A stretch of DNA of 64,000 bases from Chloroflexota bacterium. Lineage in GTDB: Bacteria > Chloroflexota > Ktedonobacteria > Ktedonobacterales > JADMIN01. The position numbers and the translations under genes were made by a program. The stretch is from the NCBI GenBank assembly GCA_021323855.1, contig JAJPKE010000025.1:22432-86431 (forward strand), read 5' to 3'. The notes under the pieces were generated by a model. The model was not told where the DNA came from, made no database searches, and worked only from the letters and a program-made list of their open reading frames with translations. Below are positions 15,135-25,573 of this stretch, piece after piece. Numbering within the stretch: position 1 is the stretch's first letter; each line of letters begins with the position of its first letter.

Positions 15135-17279
15135 ATGGATTCACAGAGAGGCTACGGCCAGTATAGCCAATACAGCCAGAGCGCGGTGAATGTGGGGATG
15201 TACGGCGATGGCGCAACTGGATCTGCCCAAAATGCGGCTGCTGATCCCGCCGAGGGGTTCGCCATTCCCACGCCACCTCCCGTCAGCCCCTGGACCACCA
15301 CCGGCGATGGCGGTGTCGGTGGCATGGCCAACGGCGCCATCGCCGATATGCACCACACGGCAAGTAGCCCGCTCGAATATGGTGGCCGGGATATCACTGC
15401 GCAGTTACGCAATGGCACCCTGACCGAACTCGCGCCGGGAACGCTCGTGCTGGGACGCTTTTATGTGGAGCGCGCGCTGGGTAAAGGTGGCATGAGCAAT
15501 GTCTATCTTGCGCAAGACTATCACTTTGAGCCGCCAAATAACCGCCGTTCGCTCAAAGAGATGATCTCTGGCCTGGACGACCCCACCCGCCTCAGCAACT
15601 TCAAGCGTGAAGCCAATGTGCTGGCCCGGTTGCGCCATCCGCGTATCCCGCGCGTCTTTGATTATTTCACTATCTATCAGCGCGCGTACCTCGTGCTGGA
15701 TTACATCGAGGGAACCGATCTGGAAGCCAAGCTCGAAGAGTCGCAAGACATGCTGGCGCCGGAGATGGTAGTAGACTGGATGCTCCAGCTCTGCGACATC
15801 GTTGAATATCTGCACACCCAACCACATCCGATCATTTTCCGCGATCTCAAACCCAATAACATCATTCTGACGCTGGACGGGCATATCGTCTTGATTGACT
15901 TTGGTATCGCCAAACTGCTCTCTGGGGGCCGCGATACCAATGTCGGCACGCCTGGTTACGCCGCCAATGAAATGTATGGCGGTCATGCCGATACGCGGTC
16001 GGATATCTTTGCCCTGGGGGCGATGATGCACCATCTGCTGACCCGGCAAGACCCGCGAAAACGGGATCTCTTCACCTTCCACCGGCACCCCATTCGCCGC
16101 TACAATCCGGCGGTTCCGCCAGAACTGGCTGCGGTGGTGATGCGCTGTGTCGAGCAAGAGATGGACAAACGCTACCAAACCATCAGGGAGGTGCGCCAGG
16201 CGCTCGAAGAAGTCTACGGCTACAGCGCGAAGCGCACAACTACCGATGGCATCGGATCACGCCCAATCATCAATACGATCCTCGATGAGCACAATGTGCG
16301 CATGGCGCCCAGCTACACCACCACCCAGATTTGGCGCTATCAAACCGAAGACGAGGTTCGCGCGACGCCAGCCGTTGATGGCAACACCGTGTATATCGGG
16401 TCCTACGACCATAATGTCCATGCAGTAGATCGCATGACTGGACGGCTGAAGTGGAAGTTTGCCACCGATGGCGGTGTCTGTGTGACGCCTGCTCTCTGGC
16501 AGAATGATGTCCTCATTGGCTCGCAAGACTTTAATATCTATGCGATTGACTGCACAACCGGCAAAGAGGACTGGCGCTATCGCACCTGGCAACGGGTTCA
16601 CTCGTCGCCACGCATCTTTGACAACCGGCTCTACATCGGCTCAGATGATACCTACATTCACGCTATCGAGCCGCGTACTGGCGTGATGATCTGGCATCAT
16701 CAGACGTTCCGCGAAATTTGGTCCTCTGCGGCCTATGACAATGGAGTGGTCTTCATCGGGTCCAGCGATAACTCCGTCTATGCGGTTGACGCGCTGACCG
16801 GCGAATTCAAGTGGCGTTTTCAGGCGCAGGGGAGCGTCATATCTTCACCCATTGTGGTGGATGGCAATGTATTCTTTGGCTCGAAGGATTTCGGGATTTA
16901 TTGCCTGGATAGCAAAACCGGCTGGCAAGCCTGGCGTACTCCTACTGATGGCGGAGTGATTTCTTCACCGTTGATTGTGGGCGACCGGCTCTATATCGGC
17001 TCGGCAGATAAGCATCTCTATTGTCTGGACCGGCATACCGGCCATCTCGTCTGGAAATACGCCACTGGCGGTCAGGTCAATTCCAGCCCGGCCTTTGCGG
17101 ATGGCGCGCTCTTCTTTGGCAGCAATGACAGAACGGTCTATTCGCTGGATCTAGAGGGCAAACTGCGCTGGCGGTTCACCACCGGTGGTATCGTTCCTGG
17201 CTCTCCGGTCGTCCGTGATGGTGTGGTGTACATCGGAAGCGCCGATGGCTGCCTCTACGCCTTGCGCGCCAATGGATAA
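15135..17279 (+). CDS. Serine/threonine protein kinase with C-terminal PQQ-like beta-propeller
   Basis: LGKGGMSNVYLA, FRDLKPNNIIL, DFGIAKLL, GTPGYAANE; repeated xxVYIGSxDxxxYAxDxxTGxxxWxF blades. Confidence 0.95.
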   Translation: MDSQRGYGQYSQYSQSAVNVGMYGDGATGSAQNAAADPAEGFAIPTPPPVSPWTTTGDGGVGGMANGAIADMHHTASSPLEYGGRDITAQLRNGTLTELAPGTLVLGRFYVERALGKGGMSNVYLAQDYHFEPPNNRRSLKEMISGLDDPTRLSNFKREANVLARLRHPRIPRVFDYFTIYQRAYLVLDYIEGTDLEAKLEESQDMLAPEMVVDWMLQLCDIVEYLHTQPHPIIFRDLKPNNIILTLDGHIVLIDFGIAKLLSGGRDTNVGTPGYAANEMYGGHADTRSDIFALGAMMHHLLTRQDPRKRDLFTFHRHPIRRYNPAVPPELAAVVMRCVEQEMDKRYQTIREVRQALEEVYGYSAKRTTTDGIGSRPIINTILDEHNVRMAPSYTTTQIWRYQTEDEVRATPAVDGNTVYIGSYDHNVHAVDRMTGRLKWKFATDGGVCVTPALWQNDVLIGSQDFNIYAIDCTTGKEDWRYRTWQRVHSSPRIFDNRLYIGSDDTYIHAIEPRTGVMIWHHQTFREIWSSAAYDNGVVFIGSSDNSVYAVDALTGEFKWRFQAQGSVISSPIVVDGNVFFGSKDFGIYCLDSKTGWQAWRTPTDGGVISSPLIVGDRLYIGSADKHLYCLDRHTGHLVWKYATGGQVNSSPAFADGALFFGSNDRTVYSLDLEGKLRWRFTTGGIVPGSPVVRDGVVYIGSADGCLYALRANG

Positions 17280-17431
17280 TGATTGATCGCGCGCATGCGA
17301 AAGCGCCTACCATATTATCTGTCGCTAGCTATTCTGCATGTGCACGTGGCGCAGGGCGATAGCAGGAGTGTATCACTACTCTCATCACTTTCACTGCTAT
17401 CACCCTGGCGTCTCCCTATCTATCCAGCCAG

Positions 17432-17632
17432 TCACTCATGAGCGGCTGGCCGCCTGGAAGGGGAATCAGGGCACGGTGTCGGCGACCCAGGGCAGTAGCC
17501 ATAGGTGTGAACACGCGCGACCGAGGTGTGTGGCTGCTGGATGGCAGCAGCGGTTGCAATCGTTGGCGTCCCGAAGGCCAGTCCAGCGTAGCCGCTCACC
17601 AGCAGGACAAGCAAAAGCCCAATTTTCCGCAT
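17432..17632 (-). CDS. Small secreted peptide (66 aa), hypothetical
   Basis: MRKIGLLLVLLVSGYAGLAFGTPTIATAAA signal peptide; GGAGG upstream; short, so tentative. Confidence 0.45.
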   Translation of the reverse strand: MRKIGLLLVLLVSGYAGLAFGTPTIATAAAIQQPHTSVARVHTYGYCPGSPTPCPDSPSRRPAAHE

Positions 17633-17964
17633 AAGCGAGAACGATCCTCCGATGGACAACTACGACGTGTCCATCAACTGTCAAAGGAATTTACAAAGCG
17701 GTAAGTGGCCATCACCGTTATTTTGACAATACAGCAAGTGTAAGCGTATGTGGAACTCACAGCCTTGTGACTCTTGCTTTTCTCGTATTCTTTGCGCTGC
17801 GGAGCAGAGGCGAGGGAGGACTTTGCATATTCGATTCAGTGAGATATAGTGACACTACATACAATTCCGTGCGTCCGTTATTGCGTATCTTCCTGTCATT
17901 CTGTTGTCACGCTATTTCGCTGTTTTTCCGCAAAGACACTGCTTTACAAAGGATCTCTTGCCCT

Positions 17965-19842
17965 ATGCGCCAGAAGATAGTGATCCTTACCTATACTGAT
18001 GATTCACCACGTATGGCTGCGCGTATAGCAGCGGCATGTAGACGCCACTACGGCGCCCGCCATGTGCAGGTCATCAGCGCCGCATCTTCTGCTCTCGCTG
18101 ACACTGGTACTGGTACCACTCCTATTGCTGCTGGCACTGACACGATCATTGCCGTGATCGGCCCTCGTTGGCTCGGCGCGAGTTCCCCGCATGATCCAGC
18201 GCATGATCGGGTGCTGGCGACGCTGGCCAGCGCCATTGCGCAGGGAACGCTAGTGATTCCAGTACTGGTGGATGGTGCGAGCGTGCCGCCTGAAACGGCG
18301 CTGCCGCAGGCCCTCGCGCCGCTTGCGGAGCGCCACGCGCCGGTGGTGCGCGCGGGATGGCGGTTCGCCGGTGATATGCGGCGCCTCTATCGCAGCATTG
18401 CCATTCAACACAACCGGGGCGGCGCGCGACCTTTCACTCTGTGGGCAGCGGTTGCCATGCTGATTGGCACACCGTTTATCATCTTGCTCTCCATCGCCAC
18501 CTATCGCCCGCAACTGGTCGTTTATTATGTGCTGGTTATGCTGGCTTTGACGTTCCCAACGCTCATACAAATGCTGCGTGAGCATCATTGGAGCTGGGCG
18601 TTTGCGCTCATCCTGTTTACGGTGATCGCGGTTTTTGGTCTGCTTGCCCTCATCAGCGCGCTCTCGATACCTGCCAATGCAGCGCGCCCGCTCAATATGC
18701 CACTCGCCTTTTCTCTGCTGCTGGTGGGCGGTTGGGCGCTGACGCTCGCGCGCTACATGGAACGTTTTCATGCGCTCAAGTGGGAGTATCTGCCGCGCCG
18801 CTCTCGCACATCACCCGATGCTCACGATGGGCATAACTCACACGCAGCAGCAAATCAAACGCCCGCTGCCCAACAATCCAAGCCTCGTTCCATGCCTCGT
18901 TCGCGCCGGGCGGCGCGCGCTGCTTCGGTGGCGACGACTACGTACTTCCTCTCGTATCGCCGTGCTGATAGCTTCGATGCCTGCAAAGCCTTTTACCATC
19001 TGCTCGCTCGTGGGTATGGGCCGAGTAATGTCTACCGTGACCTCGATATGAATCTGGGGGGTGAATTGTTCCCCGCGAGGCTGGAGCGTACGCTGGCGGG
19101 ATGTCGGGTCGCGCTCATCTTGATTGGCCCGCAGTGGCTCGATATACGGGATAACAATGGACAACGCCGTCTCGACAACCCAAACGACTTCGTGCGTATG
19201 GAAATCGCTATGGTATTGCGCCTAAGAAAAATTGTCATTCCAGTGCTGATTGGCGGCGCGAGCGCACCCGACGCAGCCAGTCTGCCGGAAGATATCAGAG
19301 CGCTGGCGAGTCTGCGGATGTTTCGCATACGCGCACTTGGGCCGCGCTGGACAGGACTGTGGTGGGAATTATGGCCGATACGCTGGTATGCCAATGCCCG
19401 CTTCTACCAACAAATCCGGCGTCATCCACTGATCCTCTATAGCGGGGTTGCGCTGTACTTTGGCCTGTTGGTGATGGCACTGACCGGCATCTGGGTAGGT
19501 ATCCGGCAGGCGGAATGGGTTGCGCTGGTCTTCTTGCTGATGCAGGCGCTCACCTGGGCAGGCGCACTCTTCGCCGCCGCGCGTGAACGCTTCTGGGGGT
19601 GGTGCGCTCTATTCGTTGGCCTCATGGTGCTGCTGGTGGGTGCGCTTGGTATGTGGCTGTTGCCCCTGGCGCCTACCAGCCAGCTCAACCGGCGGCTCGT
19701 GCCGGTAGGTGGATTGCTGGCGCTGCTCGCCTATGTGATTCTGACCTGGGCGCTGATCTTCTTTGGGCAGGGCCTTCGCAGTGGACGTTTCGAGTCTCGC
19801 GCGCCACCAACGCCACCCGCAACGCCGGTGGATACCTCATGA
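17965..19842 (+). CDS. Tandem TIR-domain multi-TM protein
   Basis: Second TIR: FLSYRRADSFDACKAFYHLLARGYGPSNVYRDLDMNLGG...ALILIGPQWLD...NDFVRMEIAMVLRLRKIVIPVLIGGA; first, degenerate TIR with IIAVIGPRWL...VIPVLVDGASVPPETALP; each followed by about four TM segments. Confidence 0.85.
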   Translation: MRQKIVILTYTDDSPRMAARIAAACRRHYGARHVQVISAASSALADTGTGTTPIAAGTDTIIAVIGPRWLGASSPHDPAHDRVLATLASAIAQGTLVIPVLVDGASVPPETALPQALAPLAERHAPVVRAGWRFAGDMRRLYRSIAIQHNRGGARPFTLWAAVAMLIGTPFIILLSIATYRPQLVVYYVLVMLALTFPTLIQMLREHHWSWAFALILFTVIAVFGLLALISALSIPANAARPLNMPLAFSLLLVGGWALTLARYMERFHALKWEYLPRRSRTSPDAHDGHNSHAAANQTPAAQQSKPRSMPRSRRAARAASVATTTYFLSYRRADSFDACKAFYHLLARGYGPSNVYRDLDMNLGGELFPARLERTLAGCRVALILIGPQWLDIRDNNGQRRLDNPNDFVRMEIAMVLRLRKIVIPVLIGGASAPDAASLPEDIRALASLRMFRIRALGPRWTGLWWELWPIRWYANARFYQQIRRHPLILYSGVALYFGLLVMALTGIWVGIRQAEWVALVFLLMQALTWAGALFAAARERFWGWCALFVGLMVLLVGALGMWLLPLAPTSQLNRRLVPVGGLLALLAYVILTWALIFFGQGLRSGRFESRAPPTPPATPVDTS

Positions 19843-20032
19843 CCCCATAAACAGCGGCGCAGGCGCGCCCTCCCTTCACACACAACGCTGTGACTGGCAG
19901 TGCGCCCGCGCCCACGGTATTGTCGCATTGAGCGACTCCGTTCGATAGACCGATGGAACTCCACCAATTGCAAGCAATTGTAAACAACTGAATGTGCAGG
20001 TATACGACACACTCAACGAGGGGAGGGCACGC

Positions 20033-21388
20033 ATGAATCGCCGTGCGCTGCTGGTTGGCATTAGCAGGTATGACTATCTCAAACCCGATCTGAACTGGTG
20101 CATAGACGATGTGCAGGCGATGCAGGAGGTCATCGCGTCTCACGCCAACCAGGGGGCTAACTTCTCCACCCGTACCCTCAAGGGGGTTGTGTCGCGGGAT
20201 GGCACTGCTGATGAGAAGATTCCTGATGGTGAACGGGTCACATTTACCAGGTTGAACACGGCGCTGAAAGAATTGTTTGACTTCGATGGCACGATCCTGT
20301 TCTATTTTGCAGGCCACGGCATTCCCAAAGAGAAGGAAACCTACCTGGCGGTGCAGGACGGAACGCTGGCGTTGCCCGGCATATCGCTGACAAAATTGCT
20401 GGACATGGCGAATACGTCGTCTGCCGAAGAAGTCATCTTGATTCTCGATGCCTGCTATTCGGGGGATATTGGTGAGCCACAGGATGAGGCAGATATTCCC
20501 AACATGTATCTGCGTCCTGGGATTACGGTGCTGGCCTCCACCAGCCCCAATCAACAGGCGAATGAAGACCGGAGGCTGGGTGAAGCGAGCGGGCATGGCG
20601 TGTTTACCCGCCTGGTGCTGGATGCGCTCAAAGGTGGCGCCGCCGATGTGCGCGGGCTGGTGTCGGTGGCCTCGATCTACGCCTACGCTGAGCAGGCGCT
20701 TGGCCCCTGGCAGCAGCGCCCCGTCTATAAGTCCAACGCCAAGAAACTCTCGCCGATTCGCTTTTGCAAGCCGGATATCACCGATGACGACCTGCGCCGC
20801 CTGCCGCTCTTCTTTCGCCAGGCAACAGACAAATATGTGCTCGACCCGACGTATGAAGTCACGCGCCCAGAGGCGTTGCCGGAGCATGTCGCGATCTTCA
20901 ATCTCTTCAAACGCTATCAAGTGGCCAGGCTGCTGCGCCCAACGATTGACGACCACCTCTATTTCGCAGCGTTATCGTCGCATCCCGTTGAATTGATGCC
21001 ACTTGGTCAGTTTTACTGGCAATTGGCTAAGGAACATCGGCTTGGCGATGTTCCTGCCTTTCCTTCACTCTGGGAGAATCCTATGAAATCAGTGCCTGAT
21101 GCAGAATCCGTCGCCAAACTCTTTCACACGACCTATGAGCGTCTTGCCCCGCACTACGGCTATGGAACCCGCCTCGCAACGCGCGTGCCCTGGGAACAGG
21201 TGCCGGAGCAGAACAGACAATTGATGATCGCCACCGCTGCCGAAGTGCTGGCAGCGTTGTTCCCACTCGAAGACCCCTCTGCGCCAGAAGATGCTGCGGA
21301 AGCGGTGTCGCCAGCAGACCCGCCAGAGATAAATGAAGAAAATGTGCCAAAGACGATAGGATACAGCCGACCCAATAGTATAGAATAG
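20033..21388 (+). CDS. Caspase-family (peptidase C14) protein
   Basis: RRALLVGISRY, catalytic His in FYFAGHG (codon 20315), catalytic Cys in LILDACYSGD (codon 20453); additional C-terminal regions. Confidence 0.93.
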   Translation: MNRRALLVGISRYDYLKPDLNWCIDDVQAMQEVIASHANQGANFSTRTLKGVVSRDGTADEKIPDGERVTFTRLNTALKELFDFDGTILFYFAGHGIPKEKETYLAVQDGTLALPGISLTKLLDMANTSSAEEVILILDACYSGDIGEPQDEADIPNMYLRPGITVLASTSPNQQANEDRRLGEASGHGVFTRLVLDALKGGAADVRGLVSVASIYAYAEQALGPWQQRPVYKSNAKKLSPIRFCKPDITDDDLRRLPLFFRQATDKYVLDPTYEVTRPEALPEHVAIFNLFKRYQVARLLRPTIDDHLYFAALSSHPVELMPLGQFYWQLAKEHRLGDVPAFPSLWENPMKSVPDAESVAKLFHTTYERLAPHYGYGTRLATRVPWEQVPEQNRQLMIATAAEVLAALFPLEDPSAPEDAAEAVSPADPPEINEENVPKTIGYSRPNSIE

Positions 21389-21551
21389 GGATGCGGATGT
21401 GCTGCGCCGCAGAGTACGCTATACTGAGGCAATTATGCGATGGCGGCTGGCAGCGTGGCTAATCTAGCTAATCTGGCTGTCCTGGCTAAACAGGGTATAC
21501 TGGCGATACTGCGAGAACTGTAGAGGATAGGTTCCCAACGAGGGGGATGGC

Positions 21552-23822
21552 GTGGATCAGGGCGACGAACAAAGCACAAGCGTACCTACTGGGGTACATA
21601 CGGCTGATAGCGCCGAAACGGCTGCAATGGTTCCTGGCAACACGAGCAACACCGGAGACGATGGAGCCGCAACGGCGCCTGCGCCCCAGGTACATGGGAC
21701 GCCAGCGTCGCCCGATGAACTGGACGATGAACTGGACATTGCACGGGAGGGACAGAAAACGCTGCCCCTGTCCGCAACGGATACACTAGCGCCGGACGAG
21801 GCGGTTGAGCAGGATCAGCAGGCCGATGCTGCTGATCCAACGGAGGAGCAGGGAGACGCATCCACAGAGAGCGAGGCCGCGCCGGAGCTGGGCGCGTCCG
21901 AAACATCTGAAACGCCCGAAACATCGGGGGCTACAGCACCGGACACCGCAAGCGCGAGTGAGGAGCCATCACTGACGGAGGCTATCGCAGCCAGCGAATC
22001 CGCTGAATCCGCCTCGCCCTCGATGCCGGAGCCAGAAACGCCCGTAGCGGAGCAAAGCGAGGATGCAGACGCTTCTACCGAGTCTAAAGCGCCCATGCGG
22101 CTGGGCGAGCCGCTGGCAGCGGGAGCGATGGTCGGCCCGTATTTGATTGAGCGTGTGCTGCGCGTGACGCCGGATGAACATAGCTATCTTGCCATCGGCA
22201 TCCGGGAGGATGGCGAGCGTGGCCCATATGTTACGCTGGTGGAGCGCGCCGAGGGTGGCTTCAGTGATAACGTCTTGCGGCTGATCGCCATGCGGCTGCG
22301 TCATCCACGCCTGCTGGCGCCGCGCACGCTCTTTTCGCTGGAAGGGCGCGATTACCTCGTCGTGGAGACGCTGGTGGATGAAGACGGCGAACCGGCGCAA
22401 TTGGTCAGCCAGGGTGGGCGGCTGCCCATCGTCAATGCGCTGACGGCGGGCGCTGGTCTGGCGGATACGTTGAGCTATCTGCATCGCAACGGCGTGGTAC
22501 ATCTGCATGTCTCGCCGGATACTATCGCTGTCTTCAATGGCCGCGCCTATCTCACTGGCATGGAACAGGCGAGCTACCTCGATCTGACCACGGCGGATTC
22601 GGCATCGTTGACTGCGCGCGACACCAACTTCCTGGCGCGCACGCTGGCGATCATTGGCGATGTGCCACCCGAAGAGGTTCCTGGCGAGGACCTCGTGCAG
22701 GACAACCTGCGGCGCATCGCAGCGCATGGCGCAAGCGATGGTTTCGAGTCTCCTGGTGAACTGGCAGGCGCCTGTAGTGTCGCGCTGGAGTCGGTGGCGC
22801 ATGCGCTGCCTAACCTCACGAGCGGGGTTGCAGCGCCGGTGATGCTGGAAACTGCCACGGCCACGACCGTCGGGCGCGTGCGCTCGCAAAATCAGGATGC
22901 CAGCGCCTACGCCACCTTTGACATTACCGATGATTGGACACAGGGTGAGCCGGTAGGGGTCTTCCTAGTGGCGGACGGCATGGGCGGTGAGGCGCGCGGC
23001 GAACTGGCGAGCCGGATTGCCGCGCGCACGGTGCTGGCGGAGATGGCGGCGCACTTTGCGTTGCCCGCGCTCATCTTGCCCGCGCGCGATCTGGACGACA
23101 GCGCAGAGTCGCGCCGCAACAGCGCCCGCGCGGACACCGGCGATGAGAACGACAGCAACAACGGCGAGGTGAGCAATAGGCAACAGAACGATGCGCAACA
23201 GCAGGAAGCATCTGAACTGACCAAAGCATTGGTGCAGGCAGTGGAGCGCGCCAACCAGCAAGTGCGCGAACTGGCGCAACAGCTCGGCAAAGTGACTGGG
23301 ACGACGCTCACTGCCATCGCCGTTCAGGGGCAACGTGCGTCGCTGGCGCACCTGGGCGACAGTCGCGCCTATCTGTTGCGTGGCGATGTCATGGTGAAGT
23401 TGACGGAAGATCACTCGGTGCTGGCGCGGCTGCAAGCGTTGGATCATCCATTGCTCAGCGACCCCGATATGTTCATTCCGCGCAATACCCTCTATCGTTC
23501 GCTTGGCCAGGAAGAAGAGACTATCCCCGATACGCTGGAGTTTACTCTGGCTCCGGGCGACCGGCTGCTCCTCTGCTCAGATGGCCTCTGGGATGAACTG
23601 GACTCGCAGACGCTGGCGCAGACATTGGCGGGCGCGAAAGACCCGCGTGACTGCACGGAGCAACTGGTGCGCATGGCCAACGCCGCCGGTGGTAGCGACA
23701 ATAGCACGGCGGTGGCGGTCTTCGTGCATCCCGTGCTGGACGACGCCGACCGGCCCAGCGTCGCGGATATCGCGGACGCTTGGAATCCGCCGGGCATGGC
23801 CGGTGAAGACGACGGTCAGTAG
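21552..23822 (+). CDS. Pseudokinase-PP2C phosphatase fusion
   Basis: Kinase-like region with degraded HRD/DFG (VVHLHVSPDTIAVFNGRAYLTGME); PP2C motifs RSQNQDA, VADGMGGEARGE, LGDSRAYL, CSDGLWDEL, GGSDNST; GTG start. Confidence 0.9.
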   Translation: MDQGDEQSTSVPTGVHTADSAETAAMVPGNTSNTGDDGAATAPAPQVHGTPASPDELDDELDIAREGQKTLPLSATDTLAPDEAVEQDQQADAADPTEEQGDASTESEAAPELGASETSETPETSGATAPDTASASEEPSLTEAIAASESAESASPSMPEPETPVAEQSEDADASTESKAPMRLGEPLAAGAMVGPYLIERVLRVTPDEHSYLAIGIREDGERGPYVTLVERAEGGFSDNVLRLIAMRLRHPRLLAPRTLFSLEGRDYLVVETLVDEDGEPAQLVSQGGRLPIVNALTAGAGLADTLSYLHRNGVVHLHVSPDTIAVFNGRAYLTGMEQASYLDLTTADSASLTARDTNFLARTLAIIGDVPPEEVPGEDLVQDNLRRIAAHGASDGFESPGELAGACSVALESVAHALPNLTSGVAAPVMLETATATTVGRVRSQNQDASAYATFDITDDWTQGEPVGVFLVADGMGGEARGELASRIAARTVLAEMAAHFALPALILPARDLDDSAESRRNSARADTGDENDSNNGEVSNRQQNDAQQQEASELTKALVQAVERANQQVRELAQQLGKVTGTTLTAIAVQGQRASLAHLGDSRAYLLRGDVMVKLTEDHSVLARLQALDHPLLSDPDMFIPRNTLYRSLGQEEETIPDTLEFTLAPGDRLLLCSDGLWDELDSQTLAQTLAGAKDPRDCTEQLVRMANAAGGSDNSTAVAVFVHPVLDDADRPSVADIADAWNPPGMAGEDDGQ

Positions 23823-23899
23823 GCGCGTATACCCGGCGCTTCGCTATGTGGAATTGTCAGGCGATCTCGCCGAGAGAGCCAGGATACTAGCCAGGATTG

Positions 23900-25573
23900 A
23901 TGCGCATGATACGTCCGGATTTTTACGCTGTGCTTGGGGTTGCGCCCGCCGCCTCAGCCGAAGAGATTCGCCAGGCGTACTATCAGCTTGCCCGCCAGCA
24001 TCACCCCGATGCTGGCGCCAGCGATGCCGATGCCGAACGCTTCAAGATCATCAACGAGGCCTATCGGGTGCTGAGTACGCCCCAGTTGCGCGTCGCCTAT
24101 GACAATGCGCTGCTCATGATGGGGCAACATCAGGCAAACCAGACGAGTCAGTCTGGTCGGGCGCGTCCGGTGGATTCTGCGCCGCTCACTAGAACCCAGA
24201 CCACCGCGCCGGTCATGCCATCGGTCTTCCCCTCGTTGGGCCTTCAGGTGACGCTGGGGCAGCAGCGCATTCTGCCTCTGCGCGAGATGACACGCTGCTA
24301 TCTGCTGACGGAACTTGGCCCATTGAGCGAGCCAGCCATCATTGACCCACAGCCGCTGGACCTGGCGCTGCTGGTGGATCGTTCCAGTTCGATGCGAGGC
24401 GCGAAGATTTTCGAAGCGATACGCGCTCTCCAATCCATCCTCGATCAACTGCACATGGATGACCTGCTCACCATTGTCCTCTTCGATGACTTCGCCGAAG
24501 TGATCGCCGACGGCGAGACGCCACGTGGGCGACCGGGCATCGAAGAGGCGCTCAAAGGCGTGATGGTGCGGGGTAGCACTGAACTGGCGAAAGGACTGGA
24601 AACCACGCTGGACCGGCTGGCGGCGCATCGCTCGCATAGCCGCGCCGCCAGCCTCGTCTTGCTGACGGATGGGCACACCTACGGCGACGAGCAGCGCTGC
24701 CTCGAACTGGCGGCGAAGGCGCGCGAAATTGGCGTCTCGATTACCACACTCGGCCTGGGGGTAGACTGGAATCGCTCATTGCTGGACCGGCTGGCGGCGA
24801 TCAGCGGTGGCAGCGCGAACTATGTGCAGCAGCCGGCAGACCTCACCGAGCATTTCGAGGCAGTGGTTCGGCGGCTGCGCGCAACGCTGGCGCTGAGCAT
24901 ACGCCAGACCTTCGAGCCGGCCCCTGGTGTGCGCATCACCCGCGCCACGCGCGTTTCGCCCGATATCGCGCAGGCGTTCAGCGTTCCCACCGGCCAGCTC
25001 TCCCTCGATACCGGCAGCAGCGATCCGTTGACGGTGGAGTTGGGGGCGCTGGCGGGGCGACCGGACCTTGAGACGGCGGCGGTGCTGTGGGAGACGCTGC
25101 TCGATCCACGGCAGATCACCACCAACCACCAGGGCGCGTATCAGGTGGGGCGACTGCACGCTACCTATATCTCGACCCAGCACAATCATCAGGTGGAGCG
25201 GTTGGGACAAGAGATTGCCATTCCAGTGAACACGGGCGGCGCGACTGAGCCGTTCAATGACGATGTGCGACTGGCGCTGCAAATCGTTACGGCGTATCGC
25301 TGCCAGGCGCAGGCCGATACACTGGCGCAGACTGGCAAACCGGCGGAGGCGCAGGCGCAACTGGACACCGCCGCGCTGCGCCTGCGCAACGCTGGCTCCC
25401 CAGATTTGGCGGCGCAGGCGCAACAGGCAGCGCAAACGCTGAGTGGCGCGCTTGCGAAGAACGATATGCAGAACGATATGCAGGTGGTAGAAGAAATGCT
25501 GCGCGTGCGCTATGGCACGAAAAACCTCGGCCTCTTCCATCGCCTGCGCCAGAGCGCCAAACACAAGCCATAA
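23900..25573 (+). CDS. J-domain (DnaJ)-von Willebrand factor A domain fusion protein
   Basis: DFYAVLGVAPAASAEEIRQAYYQLARQHHPDAG (HPD); vWA MIDAS DRSSSM, RGSTELAKGL, LLTDGHTYGD. Confidence 0.92.
   Translation: MRMIRPDFYAVLGVAPAASAEEIRQAYYQLARQHHPDAGASDADAERFKIINEAYRVLSTPQLRVAYDNALLMMGQHQANQTSQSGRARPVDSAPLTRTQTTAPVMPSVFPSLGLQVTLGQQRILPLREMTRCYLLTELGPLSEPAIIDPQPLDLALLVDRSSSMRGAKIFEAIRALQSILDQLHMDDLLTIVLFDDFAEVIADGETPRGRPGIEEALKGVMVRGSTELAKGLETTLDRLAAHRSHSRAASLVLLTDGHTYGDEQRCLELAAKAREIGVSITTLGLGVDWNRSLLDRLAAISGGSANYVQQPADLTEHFEAVVRRLRATLALSIRQTFEPAPGVRITRATRVSPDIAQAFSVPTGQLSLDTGSSDPLTVELGALAGRPDLETAAVLWETLLDPRQITTNHQGAYQVGRLHATYISTQHNHQVERLGQEIAIPVNTGGATEPFNDDVRLALQIVTAYRCQAQADTLAQTGKPAEAQAQLDTAALRLRNAGSPDLAAQAQQAAQTLSGALAKNDMQNDMQVVEEMLRVRYGTKNLGLFHRLRQSAKHKP

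Follow-up and report, generated by a model that had tools for sequence, protein, structure and literature searches.

Domain layout of the fused TIR protein

The analyzed window, a stretch of 64,000 nucleotides from a soil-type Chloroflexota bacterium, contains a gene for a 625-aa protein in which two TIR domains alternate with two bundles of membrane helices. TIR is an enzyme fold of immunity that cleaves NAD+. A gene encoding a caspase-like peptidase is located downstream (Table 1). The reading frame of the TIR gene is intact over 625 codons and encodes, in order, a TIR domain, four transmembrane (TM) helices, a linker, a second TIR domain, and four further TM helices. The same frame has an alternative GTG start at 17767; the ATG at 17965 is favored because the N-terminal MRQ then aligns with the MRV of a full-length paralogue (C5) from the same genome. 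The frame, its coordinates, and the motifs quoted in the original prediction, including the pair IIAVIGPRWL and ALILIGPQWL, are all exact in the sequence.

Table 1. Coordinates of the fused TIR gene, its parts, and the adjacent peptidase gene in the window
Feature	Position	Strand	Description or basis
PseudoTIR-4TM-TIR-4TM gene	17965..19842	+	625 aa; start codon from paralogue alignment
Pseudo-TIR, residues 1-150	17965..18414	+	TIR paralogue matches 5e-12; fold model; no Pfam TIR match
Thr86 codon at the catalytic-Glu column	18220..18222	+	Alignment and HMM alignment
First four-helix membrane bundle, residues 157-272	18433..18780	+	Kyte-Doolittle, AlphaFold2
Arg/Lys-rich linker, probably disordered, residues 273-321	18781..18927	+	pLDDT, charge count
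Intact TIR, residues 322-475	18928..19389	+	PF13676 TIR_2 9e-7; SARM1 TIR profile match 4.6e-11
Glu413 codon (gaa)	19201..19203	+	Aligns with the catalytic Glu of SARM1
Second four-helix membrane bundle, residues 488-605	19426..19779	+	Kyte-Doolittle, AlphaFold2
Caspase-like peptidase gene	20033..21388	+	Peptidase_C14 4.5e-13; His (AGHG) and Cys (DACYSG) dyad

The two halves of the protein are homologous. They are aligned by BLASTP (2e-11) with 28% identity over 181 columns, extending from the TIR domain into the membrane bundle. The Smith-Waterman comparison of the halves yields z = 14, with none of 500 shuffles as good, and the TIR parts yield z = 14.8 in the same kind of shuffle test. Thus, the shared layout noticed initially is far above chance. 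For the TM bundles alone, with helices and loops shuffled separately, z is 2.65 (11 of 500 shuffles as good), which is moderate evidence. Since the halves are merely 28% identical, the duplication is not recent.

The four or so hydrophobic segments expected after each TIR are found by both the Kyte-Doolittle analysis and AlphaFold2, and TM helices are therefore present between the halves. The full-length AlphaFold2 model is weaker overall (pLDDT 61.5) and shows four helices after each TIR; the second TIR in this model has pLDDT near 85. Linker residues 273-308 have pLDDT below 50 in AlphaFold2, and Lys and Arg outnumber Asp and Glu by 12 to 4 in residues 262-326. The distribution of Lys and Arg is 22 versus 5 in favor of the predicted inner loops, with the majority in the linker. 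The even number of TM helices and the Lys/Arg-rich inner loops place both TIR domains, by prediction, in the cytoplasm.

The second TIR is the only part of the protein matched by Pfam TIR_2 (PF13676; 29.8 bits against a cut-off of 28, residues 328-436). The closest solved structures for a profile constructed from TIRs of this genome are those of the SARM1 TIRs (4.6e-11). The second TIR retains FLSYRR, the DxD..G block of the BB loop (RDLDMNLGGE), RRLDNP, and Glu413, all aligned with SARM1. Both elements originally ascribed to it, FLSYRRADS and the glutamate of DFVRMEI, are present, and this glutamate, Glu413, occupies the same column as the Glu in the DWVHKEI motif of SARM1, which is the catalytic residue E642 (PMC7282519). 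By these similarities, the second TIR is a candidate NADase, and NAD+ cleavage is its putative activity.

The first TIR taken alone has no TIR match in Pfam. The original prediction correctly described the loss of SYRR and the replacement of the catalytic Glu by Thr (Thr86); its list was incomplete, as the DxD..G block of the BB loop and the RRLDxP block are also gone. The betaC, betaD-DD loop, and alphaD-betaE segments are retained. The AlphaFold2 model of residues 1-285 is of modest confidence (pLDDT 70) and is based on a five-row alignment with intact TIRs among the rows. Its strands and helices occur in the order typical of a TIR, and four long helices come after them. In a Foldseek search with this model the SARM1 TIRs rank first (E 4e-4 to 5e-3, TM-score by target 0.6-0.69). 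Together with the similarity to paralogues, the model and the Foldseek matches support a TIR-derived fold of the N-terminal half. The sequence, the model, and the homologues described below thus back the description of the protein as a membrane-embedded TIR that has a pseudo-TIR half.

Paired TIRs in related genomes

In the host genome, about 15 domains clearly belong to this TIR type, and several of them form pairs of intact and degenerate copies. The C5 paralogue (C5:17281-19275) shares the pseudoTIR-4TM-TIR-4TM layout, is 30% identical to the window protein over the full length, and has Ala at the catalytic-Glu column of its pseudo-TIR. In the C21 locus of the same genome, an intact TIR-TM protein (C21a) and a degenerate TIR-4TM protein (C21b) are encoded by adjacent genes. 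C21b has FLISRYDD and lacks the BB-loop block, yet retains the Glu; thus, catalysis is incompletely lost in at least one pair. A two-gene arrangement similar to C21 is observed in another genus of the same family (G007:C245), with Glu and Ala at the catalytic columns. The pseudo-TIR is first in the fused proteins and second in the two-gene pairs. All paired loci other than that of the window consist of stand-alone genes with ordinary neighbors, an arrangement compatible with a self-contained sensor-effector.

In the mixture-model tree, the intact TIRs of the window protein and the C5 paralogue (W_C and C5_C) are sisters with support 99/86, as are C21a and its intact counterpart G007_1 (98/83), and all four intact partners form one clade (98/87). 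The pseudo-TIRs of the two fused proteins (W_N and C5_N) are joined with support 95/73, the C5_N branch being very long, and the degenerate C21b and G007_2 group at 86/92. A tree constrained to have the eight paired TIRs as one clade scores 10.6 log units above the free search (p-AU 0.67). Independent duplications in the window protein and the C5 paralogue are not rejected by the AU tests (p 0.37-0.47). The simplest reading of these relationships, and a likely one, is a single family of paired TIR-TM modules with both fused and split members.

Outside the family of the host, scoring of at most nine candidates per genome in 399 Chloroflexota genomes revealed no more adjacent pairs; at this limit, a pair elsewhere may have escaped. 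No relatives were found by protein and two-sequence alignment in the named genome collections scanned. Viral contigs contained three single-TIR proteins only, which were taken in as alignment rows; plasmids contained four single-TIR matches only, and phages zero. The architecture, considered unusual from the start, is indeed so for Chloroflexota at large, but the protein is not a singleton and belongs to a small group within the taxonomic family of the host.

Possible roles of the degenerate TIR

To describe degeneration by segment, retention was scored against a profile of intact TIRs and averaged over the degenerate TIRs. The mean retention is 0.74 for betaC, 0.88 for the betaD-DD loop, and 0.87 for alphaD-betaE. 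It is about -0.07 for SYRR and -0.28 for the BB-loop block; the CC loop (0.34) and alphaC (0.35) have intermediate values. Retention is inconsistent for alphaE, which also belongs to the acceptor face. TIR NADases depend on contacts between TIRs. In SpbK, a composite site forms where one TIR packs its BB loop against the DD loop, betaE, and alphaE of its neighbor (PMC12847820); in TIR-STING, an Asp in the DD loop of the partner TIR, together with the catalytic Glu, completes the pocket (PMC9402430). Compared with these known contacts, the segment profile suggests that the dead TIRs have lost the donor and catalytic side and kept most of the acceptor side. The retention of the DD loop could result in part from constraints of the fold. 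The catalytic Glu is lost in 6 of 7 TIRs with a TIR neighbor versus 8 of 41 without one (Fisher p 0.0014, with relatedness ignored), and a test of the same association by independent pairs, with 1-4 pairs only, is underpowered.

One explanation is that the first TIR is merely decaying after the duplication and has no role. In favor of this explanation, every catalytic motif of this domain is gone, and no close orthologue suited to a selection test was found. We consider simple decay quite improbable: the frame is open, the duplication is not recent, the layout of one dead and one live copy recurs in the C5 paralogue and in two adjacent-gene pairs, and the loss is segment-specific, with the betaD-DD loop retained. 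The recurrence of the pairing in relatives suggests that the dead copy is a built-in regulator. A regulatory function of the pseudo-TIR is thus indirectly supported by the kept pairing and by the segment-specific loss.

Our preferred reading, held tentatively with a probability of roughly 0.45, is that the protein is a membrane-anchored candidate TIR NADase with the pseudo-TIR as its built-in regulatory pseudoenzyme partner, the activity, the repression, and the trigger all being putative. The pseudo-TIR, with its acceptor side kept and no BB loop to donate, would bind the active TIR once and halt the assembly. In the resting state, the active TIR would be capped by the pseudo-TIR. A cue from the membrane or from infection, transmitted via the TM bundles, would rearrange the pair and allow active TIRs to self-associate. 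The self-associated TIRs would then cleave NAD+, leading to cell arrest or to a signal, and the caspase-like neighbor may have a role in the same response.

A natural precedent for such repression comes from plants, where the Glu-less TIR of RRS1 represses the TIR of RPS4 (PMC7282519, PMC9528088). The combination of a Glu-less and a Glu-bearing TIR corresponds to Thr86 and Glu413 as a functional analogy only: RPS4 and RRS1 are two separate NLR receptors, whereas the window protein has no NLR part, and the TIRs of its family reside on membrane bundles, fused or in adjacent genes. Restraint of a TIR NADase by a membrane anchor is possible, as demonstrated by TirC from amoeba (PMC13142454), and conflict systems with inactive enzyme domains as effectors or regulators have been described in multicellular prokaryotes, Chloroflexi included (Kaur et al., 2020, PMC7159879).

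Another scenario is that the pseudo-TIR acts as a positive partner, its DD loop completing the site of the intact TIR in an obligate active/pseudo heterodimer rather than in a homo-filament. Retention of the betaD-DD loop and alphaD-betaE near the level of active TIRs agrees with this scenario, as do the physical linkage or adjacency of the paired TIRs and the completion of the TIR-STING site by a DD-loop residue of the mate (PMC9402430). We nevertheless regard it as unlikely, since retention of alphaE in the acceptor face is inconsistent and the natural Glu-less precedent, RRS1, represses. The sequence evidence does not separate a cap from a composite-site partner, and the cap is preferred because the RRS1/RPS4 precedent is repressive. 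A further version, which seems rather improbable to us, extends the positive role to the whole family of paired modules: the pseudo-TIR, with the DD-loop/betaE acceptor face kept and the BB loop and Glu lost, would be an obligate one-sided partner, catalysis would proceed via heteromeric instead of homomeric TIR assembly, and at the window locus a cut by the caspase-like protease would be additionally possible.

How TIR NADases are restrained until needed is a general question across animal, plant, and bacterial immunity, and the known Glu-less TIR that represses its partner, RRS1 with RPS4, is a plant case. A live and a dead TIR within one 625-aa protein, together with paralogues showing this combination in fused or two-gene form, would offer a compact system for asking whether the dead copy caps, templates, or completes the live one. 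Among bacterial proteins, TIRs combined with membrane helices and several TIRs in one chain are already known; in a limited, open-access literature survey we found no bacterial pair of active and pseudo TIRs on membrane modules. SARM1, the closest solved TIR by profile, is similar in the catalytic Glu and the LPED region of the DD loop. Unlike the window protein, SARM1 is regulated by ARM-SAM, lacks membrane bundles, and has a single TIR in each chain, all copies being equivalent and active. The bacterial TIR NADases SpbK and TIR-STING, which act against phages, use contacts of the BB loop with the DD loop and betaE between TIRs; they differ from the window protein in having one intact TIR per chain and homo-filaments, with no pseudo-TIR and no four-helix membrane modules. 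Membership in Thoeris, CBASS, or SPARTA was rejected: the best PADLOC matches have E 0.011-0.04, the Thoeris ThcB4 model scores 12.6 bits with the window protein (cut-off 220), and no partner components were seen among the neighbors scanned.

Gene neighborhood and other TIR arrangements

The TIR gene is located within a cluster encoding a TPR membrane protein, a Ser/Thr kinase with a PQQ propeller, a PP2C phosphatase with a kinase-like region, a DnaJ-VWA protein, and an SDR protein, and the order of these genes is kept in most of six relatives. The spacing between the kinase and PP2C genes is 72-129 bp in the six relatives versus 4,272 bp in the window, where the 4.3 kb block is filled by the TIR gene and the caspase-like gene. 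Since the cluster is present without the TIR gene in the six relatives, the latter is an addition, dispensable for the cluster. Neither long direct nor long inverted repeats, the signature of a simple mobile element, were found flanking the block. The interval between the kinase and TIR genes may encode a secreted 66-aa peptide (17435-17632, reverse strand) with a signal-peptide-like N-terminus; the rest of the block contains nothing beyond this possible peptide and the two genes. The kinase-PQQ/PP2C/DnaJ-VWA cluster (15135-25573 in the window; L123-L128) is conserved across the family of the host and includes a PP2C/pseudokinase fusion.

Many TIRs work through assembly alone. Accordingly, neither TIR of the window protein may be an NADase in practice, and both could be membrane scaffolds that recruit the kinase, phosphatase, and caspase encoded nearby. 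The composition of the neighborhood (Ser/Thr kinase, PP2C, DnaJ-VWA, caspase-like peptidase) is the local argument for such scaffolds. We do not think them likely, given that the second TIR keeps FLSYRR, DxD..G, RRLDNP, and Glu413 in alignment with SARM1, that the kinase-PP2C-DnaJ cluster is TIR-free in six relatives, and that the other paired TIR loci have no kinase, PP2C, DnaJ, or caspase neighbors.

In the improbable version with an obligate one-sided partner, the caspase-like protease may cut the Arg-rich linker (273-321), separating the TIR pair. Within the family, its gene has a homologue (64%) in a single other genome (G010), with no TIR nearby. In that genome (L131:7617-9617, G010:C1) the gene in the place of the TIR gene encodes 249 aa and has no Pfam match. 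The notion of the TIR and caspase genes as a fixed pair is weakened by this homologue following an unrelated gene.

The position of the caspase-like gene, 3' of a gene for a membrane protein, resembles the two-gene EACC1-caspase system (PMC7159879). The 5' gene of that system encodes the single-TM protein EACC1, whereas the 5' gene of the window encodes a TIR-TM protein with no match to the EACC1 model. The caspase-like gene scores 88.4 bits with the NCBIfam model of the EACC1-associated caspase, below the cut-off of 140, and the MoxR-vWA-VMAP trio was not seen beside it. Thus, membership in the EACC1-caspase system was rejected.

Longer TIR arrays are exemplified by a 1468-aa protein of the host genome (L011:5007-9413; G000:C9:152006-156412) with three TIR-TM modules, whose catalytic columns contain Glu, Glu, and Arg; it also has an extra TM helix and a C-terminal region. 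Three consecutive TIR genes at L081:5088-9258 (G010:C1) have Gln, Glu, and Leu at this column, and the products of the second and third contain a single TM helix and, after it, a long C-terminal region. On a short contig, a gene (L091:3221-4261) encodes a Clp_N domain joined to a TIR whose Glu column contains Ala; no other Glu-less TIR was seen to lack a TIR neighbor. An intact TIR is fused to an apparent superfamily 1 helicase, as judged by eye, at L015:5694-8801 (G000:C23), and further TIR proteins of the host genome contain TPR-like repeats.
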